The notes beneath the pieces were generated by a model, which was not told where the DNA came from, made no database searches, and worked only from the letters and a program-made list of their open reading frames with translations. Source: Tautonia plasticadhaerens (GTDB taxonomy: Bacteria; Planctomycetota; Planctomycetia; Isosphaerales; Isosphaeraceae). Taken from it: a DNA stretch of 64,000 nt. The stretch lies in NCBI RefSeq assembly GCF_007752535.1, contig NZ_CP036427.1, positions 1-64,000 on the forward strand. The letters are read 5' to 3'. Positions 13,256-33,119 of this stretch are shown one piece after another. Numbering within the stretch: position 1 is the stretch's first letter; every line of letters starts with the position of its first letter. A program made the translations under genes and the position numbers.

Positions 13256-14068
13256 GTGGACGTTATCGCCTTGCTGAACATGAAGGGCGGGGTCGGCAAG
13301 ACCTCGACCACGCACAACCTGGGGGGGGCGTTCGCCCTGCTCGGGCGTCGCGTCCTGCTGGTCGACAACGACCCGCAGAGCAGCCTGTCCCAGGGATTGC
13401 TCGGCCCCTCGGCCGCCGAGGCCCTGCCGATCGACGAGACGGTGGCGGCCGTCTACGCCGGGGAGGCGGTCCCCGGCCGGCTGGTCCGGCCCACCGGGAT
13501 CGACGGGGTCGACCTCGTCCCCGGCTCGATCCACACCGACCGCCACAACCGTCCGGTGCCCGAGGAGGCGCCCTGGCCCGACCAGGTCGCCCTGCGGGAC
13601 TTCCTCGGGGAGCTGGGAGACTCCTACGACCTTGTCCTGATCGACTGCCCGCCGAACCTGCACCTGTGCTCCTGGTGCGCCCTGGCGGCGGCCTCCCACG
13701 CCCTGATCCCGGTGCAGCCGGAGGACTACGGGGCGCAGGGGCTGTCGGCCGTCCGGCGGTCGATGGTCCGGGTCTGCACTTCGGTGAACCCGTCGTTGAA
13801 GCTGCTCGGCTACCTCATCACGATGGCCCAGCCGAGGAGGGCCATCCACCAGCTCTACATGGAGTCCCTCCGGTGCGACTACGGCGCCGAGGTGCTCGAG
13901 GCGATCGTCCCGGCCGCGGCCGACTTCCCCGAGGCGGTGGCCCACCGCAAGCCGGTCACTCACCACAAGCCCCGGGGGGCGGCCTCGAAGGCGATCAAGG
14001 CGCTGGCCGATGAGATCCTCGGCCGGCTGGGGCGGTCGGGGGACGAGTCTCGCGAGGAGGCCGCTTGA
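13256..14068 (+). CDS. parA: ParA-type partition ATPase
   Basis: 270 residues with GTG start at 13256 and GGGAGGGA about 10 bases upstream. The deviant Walker A motif MKGGVGKT (residues 9-16) begins almost at the N-terminus, so this is a ParA without the extra N-terminal helix-turn-helix. LLVDNDPQSS (about 36-45) is the A' motif and LVLIDCPPN the Walker B. ParA dimers bind DNA non-specifically in the ATP state and move plasmid copies apart when ParB stimulates hydrolysis. A single base separates its stop from parB, a classic parAB operon. A short ParA without its own HTH usually leaves autoregulation to ParB. Confidence 0.93.
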   Translation: MDVIALLNMKGGVGKTSTTHNLGGAFALLGRRVLLVDNDPQSSLSQGLLGPSAAEALPIDETVAAVYAGEAVPGRLVRPTGIDGVDLVPGSIHTDRHNRPVPEEAPWPDQVALRDFLGELGDSYDLVLIDCPPNLHLCSWCALAAASHALIPVQPEDYGAQGLSAVRRSMVRVCTSVNPSLKLLGYLITMAQPRRAIHQLYMESLRCDYGAEVLEAIVPAAADFPEAVAHRKPVTHHKPRGAASKAIKALADEILGRLGRSGDESREEAA

Positions 14069-14069
14069 G

Positions 14070-14993
14070 ATGAGCAAGAAGCTCGAATCGCTGCGGAAGT
14101 CGGCCGGAGGGAACGTCCGGGAGTCGATGGGGGCCGAACGACCGGTCCCGTCGGCGGGGCAGGGGGGGGCGGCCCCCGGCGGCCCCCCGGCCCGATGGCA
14201 GGGGGTGACCAAGGCCAGGGACGCCGCCCTGATCCCGGTCGACAGGATCACCAACGACCCCGACCAGCCCCGCAAGGAGTTCGACCCCGAGGCCCTCGAG
14301 CGCCTCGCCGAGTCGCTCAAGGTTCGGGGGCAGCTCCAGCCGATCCGGGTCCGCTGGGACGAGGACCGCCAGTTGTACATCGTCCTCGTCGGCGAGCGTC
14401 GCTGGCGGGCCGCCCGCCTCGCCGGGTTGCCCGCGCTCTCCTGCATCGTCCACGAGGCCCGCCTCGACGCCGACGAGCGGCTGATGGTCCAGCTCGTCGA
14501 GAACGCCTTGCGGGAAGACCTCAAGCCGGTCGAGCAGGCCCGGGCCTATCGGGCCCTGATGGACGCCAACTCCTGGTCGGGCCGCCAGCTCGCCGAGGAG
14601 TTGCACGTCGGCCAGGCGTCGGTCGTCCGGGCCCTCTCCCTGCTGGAGCTGCCGGGGGAAGTCCAGGAGCGGGTCGATTCGGGGGACCTCGCCCCCTCGG
14701 TCGCCTACGAGATCGGCAAGCTCCCCGACCCCGGACAGCAGGCCGAGGTCGCCCGGGCTGTCGTCGCCGAGGGCCTGAATCGCTCGGAGGTCGGCCAGGT
14801 CATCCAGTCGATCAAGGCCCGACGCCCCTCCCCCTCGCCCAGGCCCGACCCCGAGACGATCGACCTTGGCGACGGCATCACCGTGACGATCAAGTGGCGG
14901 AAGCCCTCCACCGTCGGCGTCGTCCAGGCCCTCCGACGCGCCCTGAGCCTGGCGCGGGGACTCGAGCGGGAATCGATCGAGGGGGTCGCCTGA
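14070..14993 (+). CDS. parB: ParB-type partition protein
   Basis: 307 residues. The ParB/Srx nucleotide-binding domain starts near residue 54 (LIPVDRITNDPDQPRKEFD) and contains GERRWRA at about 108-114, the ParB box II motif for CTP binding and clamp closing. A helix-turn-helix region (SGRQLAEELHVGQASVVRAL) near residues 167-190 should read parS. The C-terminal ~70 residues would be the dimerisation part. The start at 14070 immediately follows the parA stop and has GAGGAGG upstream, inside parA. Candidate parS palindromes lie on both sides of the operon. Confidence 0.93.
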   Translation: MSKKLESLRKSAGGNVRESMGAERPVPSAGQGGAAPGGPPARWQGVTKARDAALIPVDRITNDPDQPRKEFDPEALERLAESLKVRGQLQPIRVRWDEDRQLYIVLVGERRWRAARLAGLPALSCIVHEARLDADERLMVQLVENALREDLKPVEQARAYRALMDANSWSGRQLAEELHVGQASVVRALSLLELPGEVQERVDSGDLAPSVAYEIGKLPDPGQQAEVARAVVAEGLNRSEVGQVIQSIKARRPSPSPRPDPETIDLGDGITVTIKWRKPSTVGVVQALRRALSLARGLERESIEGVA

Positions 14994-16044: not shown

Positions 16045-17052
16045 TCACCTCGGCTCCCGGGGAGGGAAGAGGGGACGACGGGCCAGTTCCCAGAGCCGGG
16101 GCAGCGCCCGGGCCAGCCGCCGGAGCAGCAGCAGGGCCGCGACCAGCAGGGCCAGGATCAGCGGGAGCCACGGGGCCAGGCCCACCGCGAGGAGGACGAG
16201 GGACTCTCCCAGGGACACCAGCGCGTCGATCGACGAGGCCCATTCCCGGGCGACTTTCGTCCGGAAGCTCGGCGAGACCGGCGGGGTCGGCTCGTAGTCG
16301 TCCCGCTCCCGGATCCCCAGGGTGATCGTCGCCAGGCTGGAGAGGGAATCGAGGACCCGGAGCCGGCCCTCGAGCTGCTCGATCTCCCCCCGGACCCGGC
16401 TCAGCTCCACCTCGACCTTCAGCACGTCCTCCAGCTTCCCCCCACGCTCCTCCAGGATTTCCAGCAGGGTGGATTCCTCGACCTCCTTGTTCCGGACCCG
16501 CGCCTCGATGTCGTAGAACTGCTCGGATACGTCCTGGGAGGTGCGTCGGTTCCGCTCCAGCTCGCCGAGCCTCAGGAGGCCCTGGACGAGGTCCTCGAAC
16601 CGCTCGACCGGCACCCGGAGCGTCCATCGGGCGCTCCGCCGGGAGCCGGGGGAGCCGGAGAGGTCCTGCTCGGCGATGTAGCCCCCATGCCCCTCCACGA
16701 GCCCGACGACCCGGCCGGCGACCGGGTCGAGATCCTCGACGAGCAGATCGATCTGGGCGTCGTAGATGATCTTCCGGGAGATGCCCTCGGCGGCCTCGGC
16801 GGCGGCGACGTCCAGGGGCGGGCCGTCCTCCTGCCCGGGCGGCCCGGGGGAGGCGGGGAGGCCCATCATCCCACCCATCATCCCCCCGGCCAGCTCGGCC
16901 ATCGCCGGCCCGGCCGGGGAGGCCGGGGCCGGGGAGGCGTCCCTGAAGGACGCCCCCAGCTCCTCTGAGCGGGCCGCCGACCTGGGGGACGCCTCCCCGC
17001 AGCCGGGGGGCACGATCGTCAGCAGGGCGAGCAGGATCGGGATGGGTCGCAT
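16045..17052 (-). CDS. DUF4349 domain lipoprotein
   Basis: 335 residues from an ATG at 17052, preceded by GAGGAAGC; the open frame runs 31 codons further but without a signal. The N-terminus, MRPIPILLALLTIVPPGCG, is a signal peptide ending in a probable lipobox cysteine, so this is likely a membrane-anchored lipoprotein. A Gly/Met/Pro-rich linker follows. The DUF4349 core begins at KIIYDAQIDLLVEDLDPVAG and continues through WTLRVPVERFEDLV and a long coiled coil (VRNKEVEESTLLEILEERGG onward). A transmembrane helix (LLAVGLAPWLPLILALLVAA) near residue 300 precedes an Arg-rich tail. DUF4349 proteins are found in many envelopes; their function is unknown. It is convergent with the small gene at 15677. 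Confidence 0.85.
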   Translation of the reverse strand: MRPIPILLALLTIVPPGCGEASPRSAARSEELGASFRDASPAPASPAGPAMAELAGGMMGGMMGLPASPGPPGQEDGPPLDVAAAEAAEGISRKIIYDAQIDLLVEDLDPVAGRVVGLVEGHGGYIAEQDLSGSPGSRRSARWTLRVPVERFEDLVQGLLRLGELERNRRTSQDVSEQFYDIEARVRNKEVEESTLLEILEERGGKLEDVLKVEVELSRVRGEIEQLEGRLRVLDSLSSLATITLGIRERDDYEPTPPVSPSFRTKVAREWASSIDALVSLGESLVLLAVGLAPWLPLILALLVAALLLLRRLARALPRLWELARRPLFPPREPR

Positions 17053-17312
17053 CGGAGTCGCTTCCTCGATCGGGACGGGGACGGGACGGGGGGACGGGCA
17101 ATCGGCGCGGGTCCTCCCCTCCTCGACGATCCGGGGCCCCTTCACCTTAGGACCCTTCCTCCCCTCGACGGGCCGGGAGGCTCAACCCGGGGTGGAGTGG
17201 CGATCCCCGGGCCTCCTCGCCCTCGATCGCGTCGTCGCCGCCGAGGATCCAGACGAGATCGCCCCCGGCCCCGTCCCCGGGCCCGCCGCCCCCCCGTGTC
17301 GAATCCCGGGAC

Positions 17313-17340
17313 GGCTCGCCTTCGGCTCGCCTTCGGCTCG
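17313..17340. repeat. Short tandem repeat, 11-bp unit
   Basis: GGCTCGCCTTC occurs twice in direct succession (17313-17323, 17324-17334), followed by a partial third unit. It precedes the three 96-nt elements. Confidence 0.6.
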
Positions 17341-17365
17341 GTCGAGGCGAGGTCGGGATGCGGTC

Positions 17366-17462
17366 GGTGCGCCGATCGGTCGCACCTGAGATTCGGCACA
17401 AGTCGTTATTTGGAAAGAAGTTTGTGTCAAACGAAATGGGTTCGCTCCGCCGAGGCGTACCG
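17366..17462 (+). repeat. 96-nt element with pairing ends, copy R1
   Basis: Begins GGTGCGCCGAT and ends with the 25-base block at 17438-17462, whose first half is GGGTTCGCTCCGCC and which closes with GTACCG. The terminal GGTGCGCC can pair with GGCGTACC near the end (one G-U pair as RNA). The ~60 bases between are much less GC-rich than the surroundings and contain GGAAAGAAG. Copies R2 and R3 have the same length and ends. Confidence 0.65.
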
Positions 17463-17570
17463 ACCTGGGGCTTCGCAGGACGGGGGATTCGGCACCCCGA
17501 GGTCCGGAGGCCCTCCGGGGCGGCCTCGGGGGCGTCTTCGCCCCCGCGGTGCGCGGGGTGGTCGGGGGTT

Positions 17571-17666
17571 GGTGCGCCGATTTCGCACCACGGCGATCCG
17601 ACGCAACGTTCTTCAGGAAAGAAGATTGCGGAGAATGAAATGGGTTCGCTCCGCCGGGGCGTACCG
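17571..17666 (+). repeat. 96-nt element with pairing ends, copy R2
   Basis: Begins GGTGCGCCGAT and ends with the same block at 17642-17666, one base different from R1. The interior also has GGAAAGAAG and an AATGAAATGGG junction like R1 (ACGAAATGGG), but is otherwise diverged. The spacing from first to last block is 71 bases (72 in R1). Confidence 0.65.
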
Positions 17667-17731
17667 GCTCGGCGGGGTGGATCTCGGGGCAGGGGGGCCC
17701 GTGCCGTTCGGCCCCCGGGGTGATCCGGGTC

Positions 17732-17827
17732 GGTGCGCCAATCACGCGGCCCGGCGAATTGCGATATGTGAGAAGCTCCCAACGACTTGCGGCATGTCGA
17801 TTGGGTTCGCTCCGCCGAGGCGCACCG
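17732..17827 (+). repeat. 96-nt element with pairing ends, copy R3
   Basis: Begins GGTGCGCCAAT and ends with the block at 17803-17827, again one base different from R1. Here the terminal helix is a perfect Watson-Crick match, GGTGCGCC with GGCGCACC, where R1 and R2 have a G-U pair. The interior is the most diverged of the three. Confidence 0.6.
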
Positions 17828-18564
17828 CCGAGGAGGGCCGATCCCCGGCGAAGGAAGCCCGAGGGGGTGCGGGGCTCGATCGACGGCCCGGGCGCGACCG
17901 ATCGACCCCGGCAGGAAGCCGGGTCGGTCGGGGAGGCCGGGGGAGGCATCGGGGGCGAGGCGGTCGGCACGTCGGGGGCTCGGCGCTGGGAGAGACGGCG
18001 GGGACGGCGCATCATCCCCTCCCCCTAATCATCGAGGATCGGGCCGATTCCAGTCACACGATCTGGAGGGATCGAGGGCGATCACCCCGGGCAGGGGAAT
18101 CGGCCTCGGGAGTCGCGGCGTCTCGGCCTCGGGAATCGGATCGGTTGCAGCAGCGGGGCGCGGTTTTGGGGACGGGCGGAGTGCCTCGGGATGACGGCGT
18201 TGGTCGAGCCGAAACCTCCGGGTCGCGGGTCGGTCTCCCCCAGCCGTGAAGTCGTCCGCGCTCGGGAACGATTCCCTGGGAACGATCGGGCACCCTTCAT
18301 CCAATCACGTCGACCGTCCCCCGAATATGAATCGCCCCCCATGGCTCGGGGCGGGCTCCCACTCCAGCTCGACCTCGCGGAGACGACATCCTTCGGTTGA
18401 CGCAGGCGATGGGGGGCATGCGGGTCCCAGGCTCGGGAGTCCCGAGACTTCGACGGGTTGGAGGATGGCCCGGGAGACTTGGAGTGCGCCCATGGGCCTC
18501 GCCCGTGGGGCCGGTCGGGGAGAATCCTGTAACAACGCCCCCTCGCCATCCGTACTTCCTGCAA
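17828..18564. other. Gene-free stretch before the ECF sigma operon
   Basis: About 740 bases in which overlapping open frames exist only as a by-product of high GC; none shows a ribosome-binding site with a plausible product. The last ~60 bases, before the sigma factor, include the less GC-rich GGGGAGAATCCTGTAACAAC and probably hold its promoter. Confidence 0.35.
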
Positions 18565-19131
18565 ATGGCGGATCCACTCCGATTCGATCAAGTCATGGAA
18601 CGACTCAGCTCCCGCGTCTACTCGCTGGCGCGTTACACGCTGGGGAGTGCCCAGGACGCCGAGGACGTCACCCAGGAGGTCTTCATCCGACTCTGGGAGA
18701 ACTGGGCTCAGGTCGACCTCGAACGGGTCGAAGGCTGGCTGATCCGCGTCACGAGCAACGCCTGCGTCGACTTCCGCCGGAGGAGCTCGGCGCGGCCCGA
18801 GGCCGGCGGCTCCCGCGCCCCGACCCGGGCGATCGACCGCTGCCCGTCGGCCGCGACGGACCCGAGCACCGCGGCCGAGTCCTCCGAGCTGCGATCCCGC
18901 GTCGCGGACGCCATCGCTCGCCTCCAGGAACCGTATCGGAGCGTCCTGATCCTCAGGGAAATCGAAGGACTTCCCTACGCGGAAATCAGCCAGGCGCTCG
19001 GGATGTCGATGCCCTCCGTGAAGGTCAATCTCCATCGGGCGCGAGCCCGGCTCACGGAGCTGCTCGGGCCCCTGGGCGATCCCCCGAGCAGTTCCGGACA
19101 GCGGCGAGAGGCGGGCGAACGTGTCCACTGA
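18565..19131 (+). CDS. ECF RNA polymerase sigma factor
   Basis: 188 residues from the ATG at 18565; a longer frame to 18397 adds an implausible Gly/Arg-rich leader. Region 2 is clear: RLSSRVYSLARYTLGSAQD and AEDVTQEVFIRLWENW (core binding and -10 recognition). Region 4 is LQEPYRSVLILREIEGLPYA plus EISQALGMSMPSVKVNLHRA, the -35-reading helix-turn-helix. The linker, rich in Ser/Ala/Pro, is longer than usual. Its last 11 bases overlap the anti-sigma gene, so the two are translationally coupled and probably autoregulated as a pair. Confidence 0.9.
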   Translation: MADPLRFDQVMERLSSRVYSLARYTLGSAQDAEDVTQEVFIRLWENWAQVDLERVEGWLIRVTSNACVDFRRRSSARPEAGGSRAPTRAIDRCPSAATDPSTAAESSELRSRVADAIARLQEPYRSVLILREIEGLPYAEISQALGMSMPSVKVNLHRARARLTELLGPLGDPPSSSGQRREAGERVH

Positions 19132-32641: not shown

Positions 32642-33119
32642 GGATGTTCCTCCGCTGGATCGACGGGCTCGCCGCTCGCGAAGGGTCGCGAACGCGGTGC
32701 CCGTCCGGGTCATGGTCCCGGATGTGCCCGATGAGGGTCGTTCGACTCGACGGCCTTCCCCATTCGACCCACAGCCGCAATTGGAATCGAGCCGATCCCG
32801 TCCTTCAAGGCCGCTCCGCCCCGGGGCCGGCCCCCGGGGAAACCGTGTCCTGGCGCCGGTTCCCCGAGCCCCGGGACGCCACCACGGGCCGGGTCTGGTG
32901 GGCGACCGGCCGGCGAGGCGGCCCGCCGCCCCGTGCCGGCGGTGCCCCGACCTTCCCTCCCGACACGGCAACGAGCGTGCCGGATCCCCGGACGTCCGCA
33001 TGCAGCAGGGAACGGCCCTCCCGGGCAGGAGGCTTGATGGAGGCGGCGAATCGACGATCATGGGCAGCTGACCGACGAGAGACCTGCAATCCGCCGAGCG
33101 TTGCGAGAGGGGACGGCCC
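32642..33119. other. Divergent intergenic region, reductase / amidohydrolase
   Basis: 478 bases between divergent genes. It should contain promoters in both directions. Nothing else was recognised; the frames open here are GC artefacts. Confidence 0.35.

Follow-up and report, generated by a model that had tools for sequence, protein, structure and literature searches.

Phased sites are a feature of ara looping and of plasmid iterons. For lac loops, a period of about 10.9 bp in vivo is reported (PMC1831498), and REPINs are dispersed elements whose ends are conserved and whose spacer is diverse, and they are linked to a gene family (PMC8049555). The repeat family from Tautonia plasticadhaerens described here resembles each of these systems in part. 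With REPIN/RAYT systems it has in common more than 100 dispersed and mostly intergenic elements, conserved ends, a diverse spacer, and the link to a gene family, which we named GPRT after the STGPRT motif of its uncharacterised members. It differs from them in that the linked gene is multicopy and has no Y1_Tnp match, and in that the spacing within the element is helically quantised. Phased operator and iteron arrays, like the present family, have their sites in helical register, with a period of about 11 bp here beside that of the lac loops, whereas the present family occupies about 70 chromosomal places and consists of two unlike boxes whose distance can change by whole turns.

The comparison with mobile elements is similarly mixed. 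Like the MITEs of insertion sequences, the element is short, dispersed, partly inverted at its ends (boxes A and D) and related to one end of a gene unit that is multicopy. Neither a target site duplication (TSD) nor a homogeneous body was seen, and the gene matches no transposase model. As for integrons, an attI-like region is found in some GPRT units, and cassette arrays lie next to them, whereas the element cannot be called an attC site: GCCTAAC...GTTAGGC cores are absent from the window, by which we mean the whole analysed stretch of 64,000 nucleotides. Among the listed titles and abstract openings of the literature outside subscription journals, we found no description of this element family.

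Three repeats in the window and their dispersed relatives

The window covers positions 1-64000 of contig C2, a 278-kb part of the 9.4-Mb genome. It contains the copies R1 (17366-17462), R2 (17571-17666) and R3 (17732-17827) on the plus strand, which form a head-to-tail array (17366-17827) with box C to box C distances of 204 and 161 bp. Counted through the G after ACC, the copies are 97, 96 and 96 nucleotides long. Box A, GGTGCGCC, is located at 17366-17373, 17571-17578 and 17732-17739. The box C core, TGGGTTCGCTCCG, follows at distances of 71, 70 and 70 bp (17437-17449, 17641-17653 and 17802-17814), and the near-identical ends, which begin with this core, read TGGGTTCGCTCCGCCG(A/G)GGCG(T/C)ACC. 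Box D is GGCGTACC in R1 (17454-17461) and R2 (17658-17665) and GGCGCACC in R3 (17819-17826). The original prediction of three equal-length repeats was thus reproduced in its positions, box A starts and near-identical ends. Its gene-free surroundings were also confirmed with our own codon-usage caller, from which all coding calls around arrays derive: there are zero calls between 17145 and 18595. The intergenic gap (17146-18594) is flanked by genes at 16045-17145 (minus strand) and 18595-19131 (plus strand), neither of which is part of the element.

R1-R3 belong to a family beyond chance, because the box C pattern WTGGSTTCGBTCCG has 154 exact matches in the genome (80 and 74 on the two strands), against 0 and 1 for the reversed-pattern controls. 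We read 65 array regions, i.e., 60 fetched regions, the window and four loci obtained by searching. They hold 123-124 copies depending on the script, where a copy is defined by the form of box C used in the respective script and degenerate copies are left out; two box C matches lacking the 5' box were also omitted from one copy-comparison set. The general layout consists of box A with one to four iterons of GGTGCGC, a diverged, AT-richer spacer, and box C (AATGGGTTCGCTCCG). The low-GC interior predicted for R1-R3 turned out to be general to the family, as the G+C fraction is 0.50-0.58 at positions -50 to -1 and 0.73-0.82 further out (124 copies). Element interiors are highly diverged between copies.

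Multi-copy arrays are invariably head-to-tail, both in T. plasticadhaerens (42/42 with a strict and 45/45 with a looser box C) and in T. sociabilis (13/13). No coding call lies inside 58 of the 65 arrays, which adds to the likeness with the many dispersed intergenic copies of REPINs; six arrays reside in a GPRT gene and one overlaps another call. The genes flanking the 65 arrays show no bias in orientation (21/17/15/12), a count from which locus L031 was excluded as it has no flanking call on one side. The listed arrays occupy 70 places on contig C1, in addition to the window on C2. Unlike replication-origin iterons, the element is therefore not confined to an origin, and the proposal of origin repeats did not hold as such; the iteron-like helical phasing is real. 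The list merges several patterns and, past 7.06 Mb, relies on patterns other than WTGGSTTCGBTCCG. A 1.11-Mb stretch of C1 (4663880-5776156) is free of listed copies, for which p is 0.0068 if 70 arrays are placed randomly and with the list possibly incomplete beyond 7.06 Mb.

Helical phasing and terminal pairing

With no register imposed, GGTGCGC upstream of box C is found mostly at 58-60, 69-71, 80-82, 92-94 and 103-105 bp. The 124 copies contain 168 box A sites within 45-130 bp of box C, and 164 of these fall into 20 of the 86 positions, chosen after the data were seen. This amounts to a 54-fold enrichment over the background, which would give 0.025 sites per copy. At least one box A site is present in 120 of the 124 copies, and four copies have no box A. 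When one copy was taken from each array (n = 62), a register-free test gave a period of 11.3-11.5 bp (R 0.91; null 99% 0.40). The A-to-C period is 11.36 bp in T. plasticadhaerens, using distances of 50-130 bp, and 11.32 bp in T. sociabilis, using distances up to 112 bp (bootstrap 11.15-11.54, n = 102). The pooled genomes G040 and G041 show the same period of 11.3 bp with weaker phasing (R 0.60, n = 98, null maximum 0.33).

Neighbouring copies are also phased relative to each other. For copy-to-copy spacings limited to 140-300 bp, the period in T. plasticadhaerens is 11.04 bp (10.65-11.40, n = 59), matched by none of 500 null sets, and that in T. sociabilis is 11.05 bp (n = 13, p 0.028). A slightly different set of T. 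plasticadhaerens copies gave 10.80 bp (n = 58, R 0.55, null 95% 0.34). For comparison, B-DNA in solution has 10.5 bp per turn. The A-to-C distance spans five to ten turns in helical register, and apparently orthologous places of the two species can differ by whole turns (-70, -70 in L128 against -80, -80 in L229; -58 three times in L077 against -80 in L234).

Shared descent alone would hardly explain a register that is kept despite the loss of spacer sequence. Because the distances between A and C are quantised while the sequence between them is lost, they suggest that a protein complex sits on double-stranded DNA and would need both boxes, and neighbouring copies as well, in register. Taken on its own, we consider this phased-DNA reading of the repeats to be probable, and we hold it with good confidence. 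The arrays amount to a natural experiment on DNA looping, with more than 100 diverged sites whose length varies in whole turns while the register stays constant; the period is about 11.3 bp inside a copy and about 11.05 bp from one copy to the next.

The original prediction had offered a structured RNA family closed by a terminal helix. Box D is the reverse complement of box A, and it is correct that the terminal bases of R1-R3 can pair, with G-U in R1 and R2 and G-C in R3; individual copies such as R1 and R3 are still pairable at their ends. Over 121 copies, however, box A pairs equally well with its own box D and with a box D shuffled among copies (6.397 versus 6.418 of 8; p 0.91), which also sets the element apart from REPINs with their hairpin ends. 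Only one change in box D is compensated, against 188 that break a pair, in a test that took box A with at most two mismatches and thereby limited the compensation that could be seen. Box A is exactly GGTGCGCC in 106 of the 121 copies, and box D is exactly GGCGCACC in 35.

Covariation is likewise absent from alignments. RNAalifold returned a covariation term of -0.07 for 27 copies, with zero pairs changed on both sides. A scan of all pairs in 23 equal-length copies with exact GGTGCGC at -70 gave a best stem of 3.14, compared with a maximum of 3.11 in 30 column-shuffled sets, and this stem joins flank and spacer rather than forming the terminal helix. Rfam has no match at gathering in the window, and a search of 17200-18000 at E up to 10 returned one match (E 5.2) under its gathering score. 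The place relative to genes is not fixed, and the distances are quantised by helical turns, making a structured RNA highly improbable. The data suggest double-stranded DNA elements rather than RNAs, with protein presumably bound to them. The original prediction had named two observations that would speak against it, of which the lack of covariation at the terminal helix among homologues was found and a conserved reading frame through the blocks was not. Such a frame is out, given that 58 of the 65 arrays contain no called gene and that the A-to-C distances are not multiples of 3.

Array positions and the GPRT gene family

Comparing 40 T. sociabilis array regions with the 65 of T. plasticadhaerens, we found 14 pairs with a common neighbour gene. 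Eleven of these were examined, the remainder being three single-gene pairs; nine were judged to be at the same place, all nine in the same orientation, and two at different places. Place was judged from gene order, in several cases on one side only (contig ends or rearrangement). Turnover of arrays also appears high, because 31 of the 40 T. sociabilis regions are unmatched to a T. plasticadhaerens array in the sample.

The GPRT gene has about 450-520 codons. Six single copies of the element, of the -104 class, lie antisense inside its 3' end. We examined 18 of the 28 GPRT hits in T. plasticadhaerens, and 12 of the 18 carry the element. These are the 12 closest copies, all of which (12/12) have it at exactly -104, antisense, in the 3' end; in each, GCGCACC follows the start of the reverse box C by exactly 110 bp. 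The close copies are scattered over different places, and their protein cores share up to 94% identity with that of the first. Six diverged copies (L171-L176, 34-42% identity) show neither the element (0/6) nor its core (0/6) from 1.5 kb before to 2.6 kb after the gene start. Among six T. sociabilis GPRT loci, four have the element at -104 with one mismatch per box allowed; in L201, box A is at -126, and in L200 it is absent.

The association extends to other genera, for which we examined 40 GPRT loci (20 from genome G011 and 20 more) from seven genomes of five genera. The 8-bp core occurs 43 times antisense and once sense in the GPRT tails, 4 times antisense and 3 times sense upstream of the genes, and once antisense and never sense in the coding core. 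The 43 antisense tail cores compare with a mean of 2.0 in dinucleotide-shuffled sequences (maximum 8, 200 shuffles), and the 34 in the coding part of the tails with a mean of 2.1 in codon-shuffled ones (maximum 8, 300 shuffles). By genome, tails with the core number 18/20 in G011, 5/6 in G026, 4/5 in G007, 2/2 in G044, 2/2 in G030 (two near-identical loci), 1/4 in G043 and 0/1 in G028, i.e., 32/40 in total.

GPRT matches were found in 33 of the 45 genomes searched of this bacterial family. In G043, G026 and G007, there are 37, 21 and 23 GPRT hits and no 15-mer match, and in G022 the motif is matched 18 times with no GPRT hit at E 1e-5. GPRT proteins returned nothing from Pfam (six proteins at E 0.001, two at E 5), NCBIfam, PHROGs, PADLOC, PDB sequences, a phage collection or IMG/VR, and no transposase model matches them. 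Plasmids gave one weak place, with 48% identity over 82 residues, in Planctomyces sp. SH-PL62. The structure model of a T. sociabilis GPRT protein is all helix at low confidence (pLDDT 53.7). GPRT is the leading candidate for the partner of the element, since its gene has the site in several genera.

The same association could mean that the repeats are a non-autonomous mobile element of the GPRT unit, resembling a MITE or REPIN and without a function for the host, in which the boxes would be what a mobilising enzyme needs and the spacing would be set by its DNA complex. The element in all 12 close copies, the different places of these copies and the identity of their protein cores (up to 94%), the unmatched T. 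sociabilis regions (31/40) and the unbiased orientation of flanking genes (21/17/15/12) are all in line with this. However, the copies are highly diverged inside, nine pairs of arrays keep place and orientation across species, and GPRT matches no transposase model. For L100 and L095, searched in G040-G042, we found no site with collinear flanks and the unit absent, i.e., no clean empty site, and neither terminal inverted repeats (TIR) nor TSD were established. We therefore find this explanation doubtful; the small mobile element originally proposed is partly supported by the tie to a multicopy gene unit.

Alternatively, the arrays could be architectural or regulatory sites of a chromosome-organising host protein, and the GPRT link would be secondary, arising because a copy is present in some GPRT units. 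The many places with phased head-to-tail arrays, the 1.11-Mb stretch without listed copies (p 0.0068), the places common to T. sociabilis, the six diverged GPRT copies without the element and the motif in G022 without a GPRT hit would all fit host sites. This explanation is unlikely in view of the link between the core and GPRT tails, almost always in antisense, in five further genera, and of the many places that differ between species.

We favour a reading, held with roughly even confidence, in which the R1-R3 family consists of phased, putative protein-binding DNA sites for GPRT or a partner, arranged in looped arrays and forming a REPIN-like population. A protein, most likely GPRT or a partner, would bind boxes A and C and loop or wrap the spacer, and the same protein would join neighbouring copies into one complex. 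Its original role may have been to mark or handle the end of a mobile GPRT unit. The solo arrays would then be a REPIN-like population derived from that unit end and kept at old sites by selection or slow re-copying. The phasing of 164 of 168 sites, the lack of covariation, the nine shared places and the GPRT tail link argue for this reading; the six diverged GPRT copies without the element and the poor tail counts of G043 (1/4) and G028 (0/1) argue against it. The low-confidence GPRT model, the genomes with only the motif or only GPRT hits, the weaker phasing in G040 and G041, the four copies lacking box A and the T. sociabilis loci L200 and L201 also weigh against it.

Integron sites near GPRT units

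The strict attC pattern GCCTAAC-N70-100-GTTAGGC, which is symmetric and so reports each place on both strands, occurs at 15 places in the T. plasticadhaerens genome, against 2 and 2 for the reversed control. All 15 sites are located in five clusters upstream of GPRT copies (C1: 2050915-2052301, 2703082-2708007, 3371903-3372002, 6928920-6930631 and 7964861-7964960), and each cluster has its nearest site at a distance of 0.9 to 2.9 kb from the start of the gene. The single integron integrase above the cut-off (C1:2708613-2709554; 470 bits, cut-off 265) is encoded between the largest attC cluster with its cassettes and a GPRT gene. An attI-like region of approximately 185 bp (1105-1292 of L168) separates the cassettes from the integrase. 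It recurs with 83-89% identity over 177-189 bp at the left ends of the GPRT units L161, L163 and L166, where the integrase is absent, and as a 24-bp match in L167 and L170. Because attC clusters, the integrase and attI-like regions adjoin GPRT units, some of the Tautonia units look like possible dispersed integron platforms. Near one GPRT copy, at a distance of about 2 kb, lies the only Y1_Tnp gene of the genome (C1:7963603-7963839), which has an attC site about 1 kb away.

A broader partnership may be envisaged, albeit tentatively and as a rather improbable extension: an unclassified multicopy protein family and its phased binding arrays would form a looping system that disperses around the chromosome with integron attI sites and cassette arrays, and serves as a platform for them. 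An unnamed gene family, found in 33 of the 45 genomes searched, is linked with a DNA motif in several genera and also with integrons in Tautonia, and through these links its function becomes testable.

Other repeats and features were observed alongside. The core TGGGTTCG is also found in short tandem repeats (L043 1488-1660, L102 3888-4056 and L047), with 25-bp units in G011, units of 24-34 bp within L102 and many variants in G022. A separate dispersed repeat of the CCCTCACCC...CCTCTCCCC type is present at 2152-2203 and 4809-4939 of L100, with many copies in G040 and G041. On contig C2, an adjacent gene pair at 13256-14993 of the window, which we take by eye from its motifs to resemble parA and parB, lies about 2.4 kb from the R1-R3 array. 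ARAGORN called a tRNA-His with an ATG anticodon at 32680-32761 of the window, an anticodon that is unusual for this tRNA in a bacterium.
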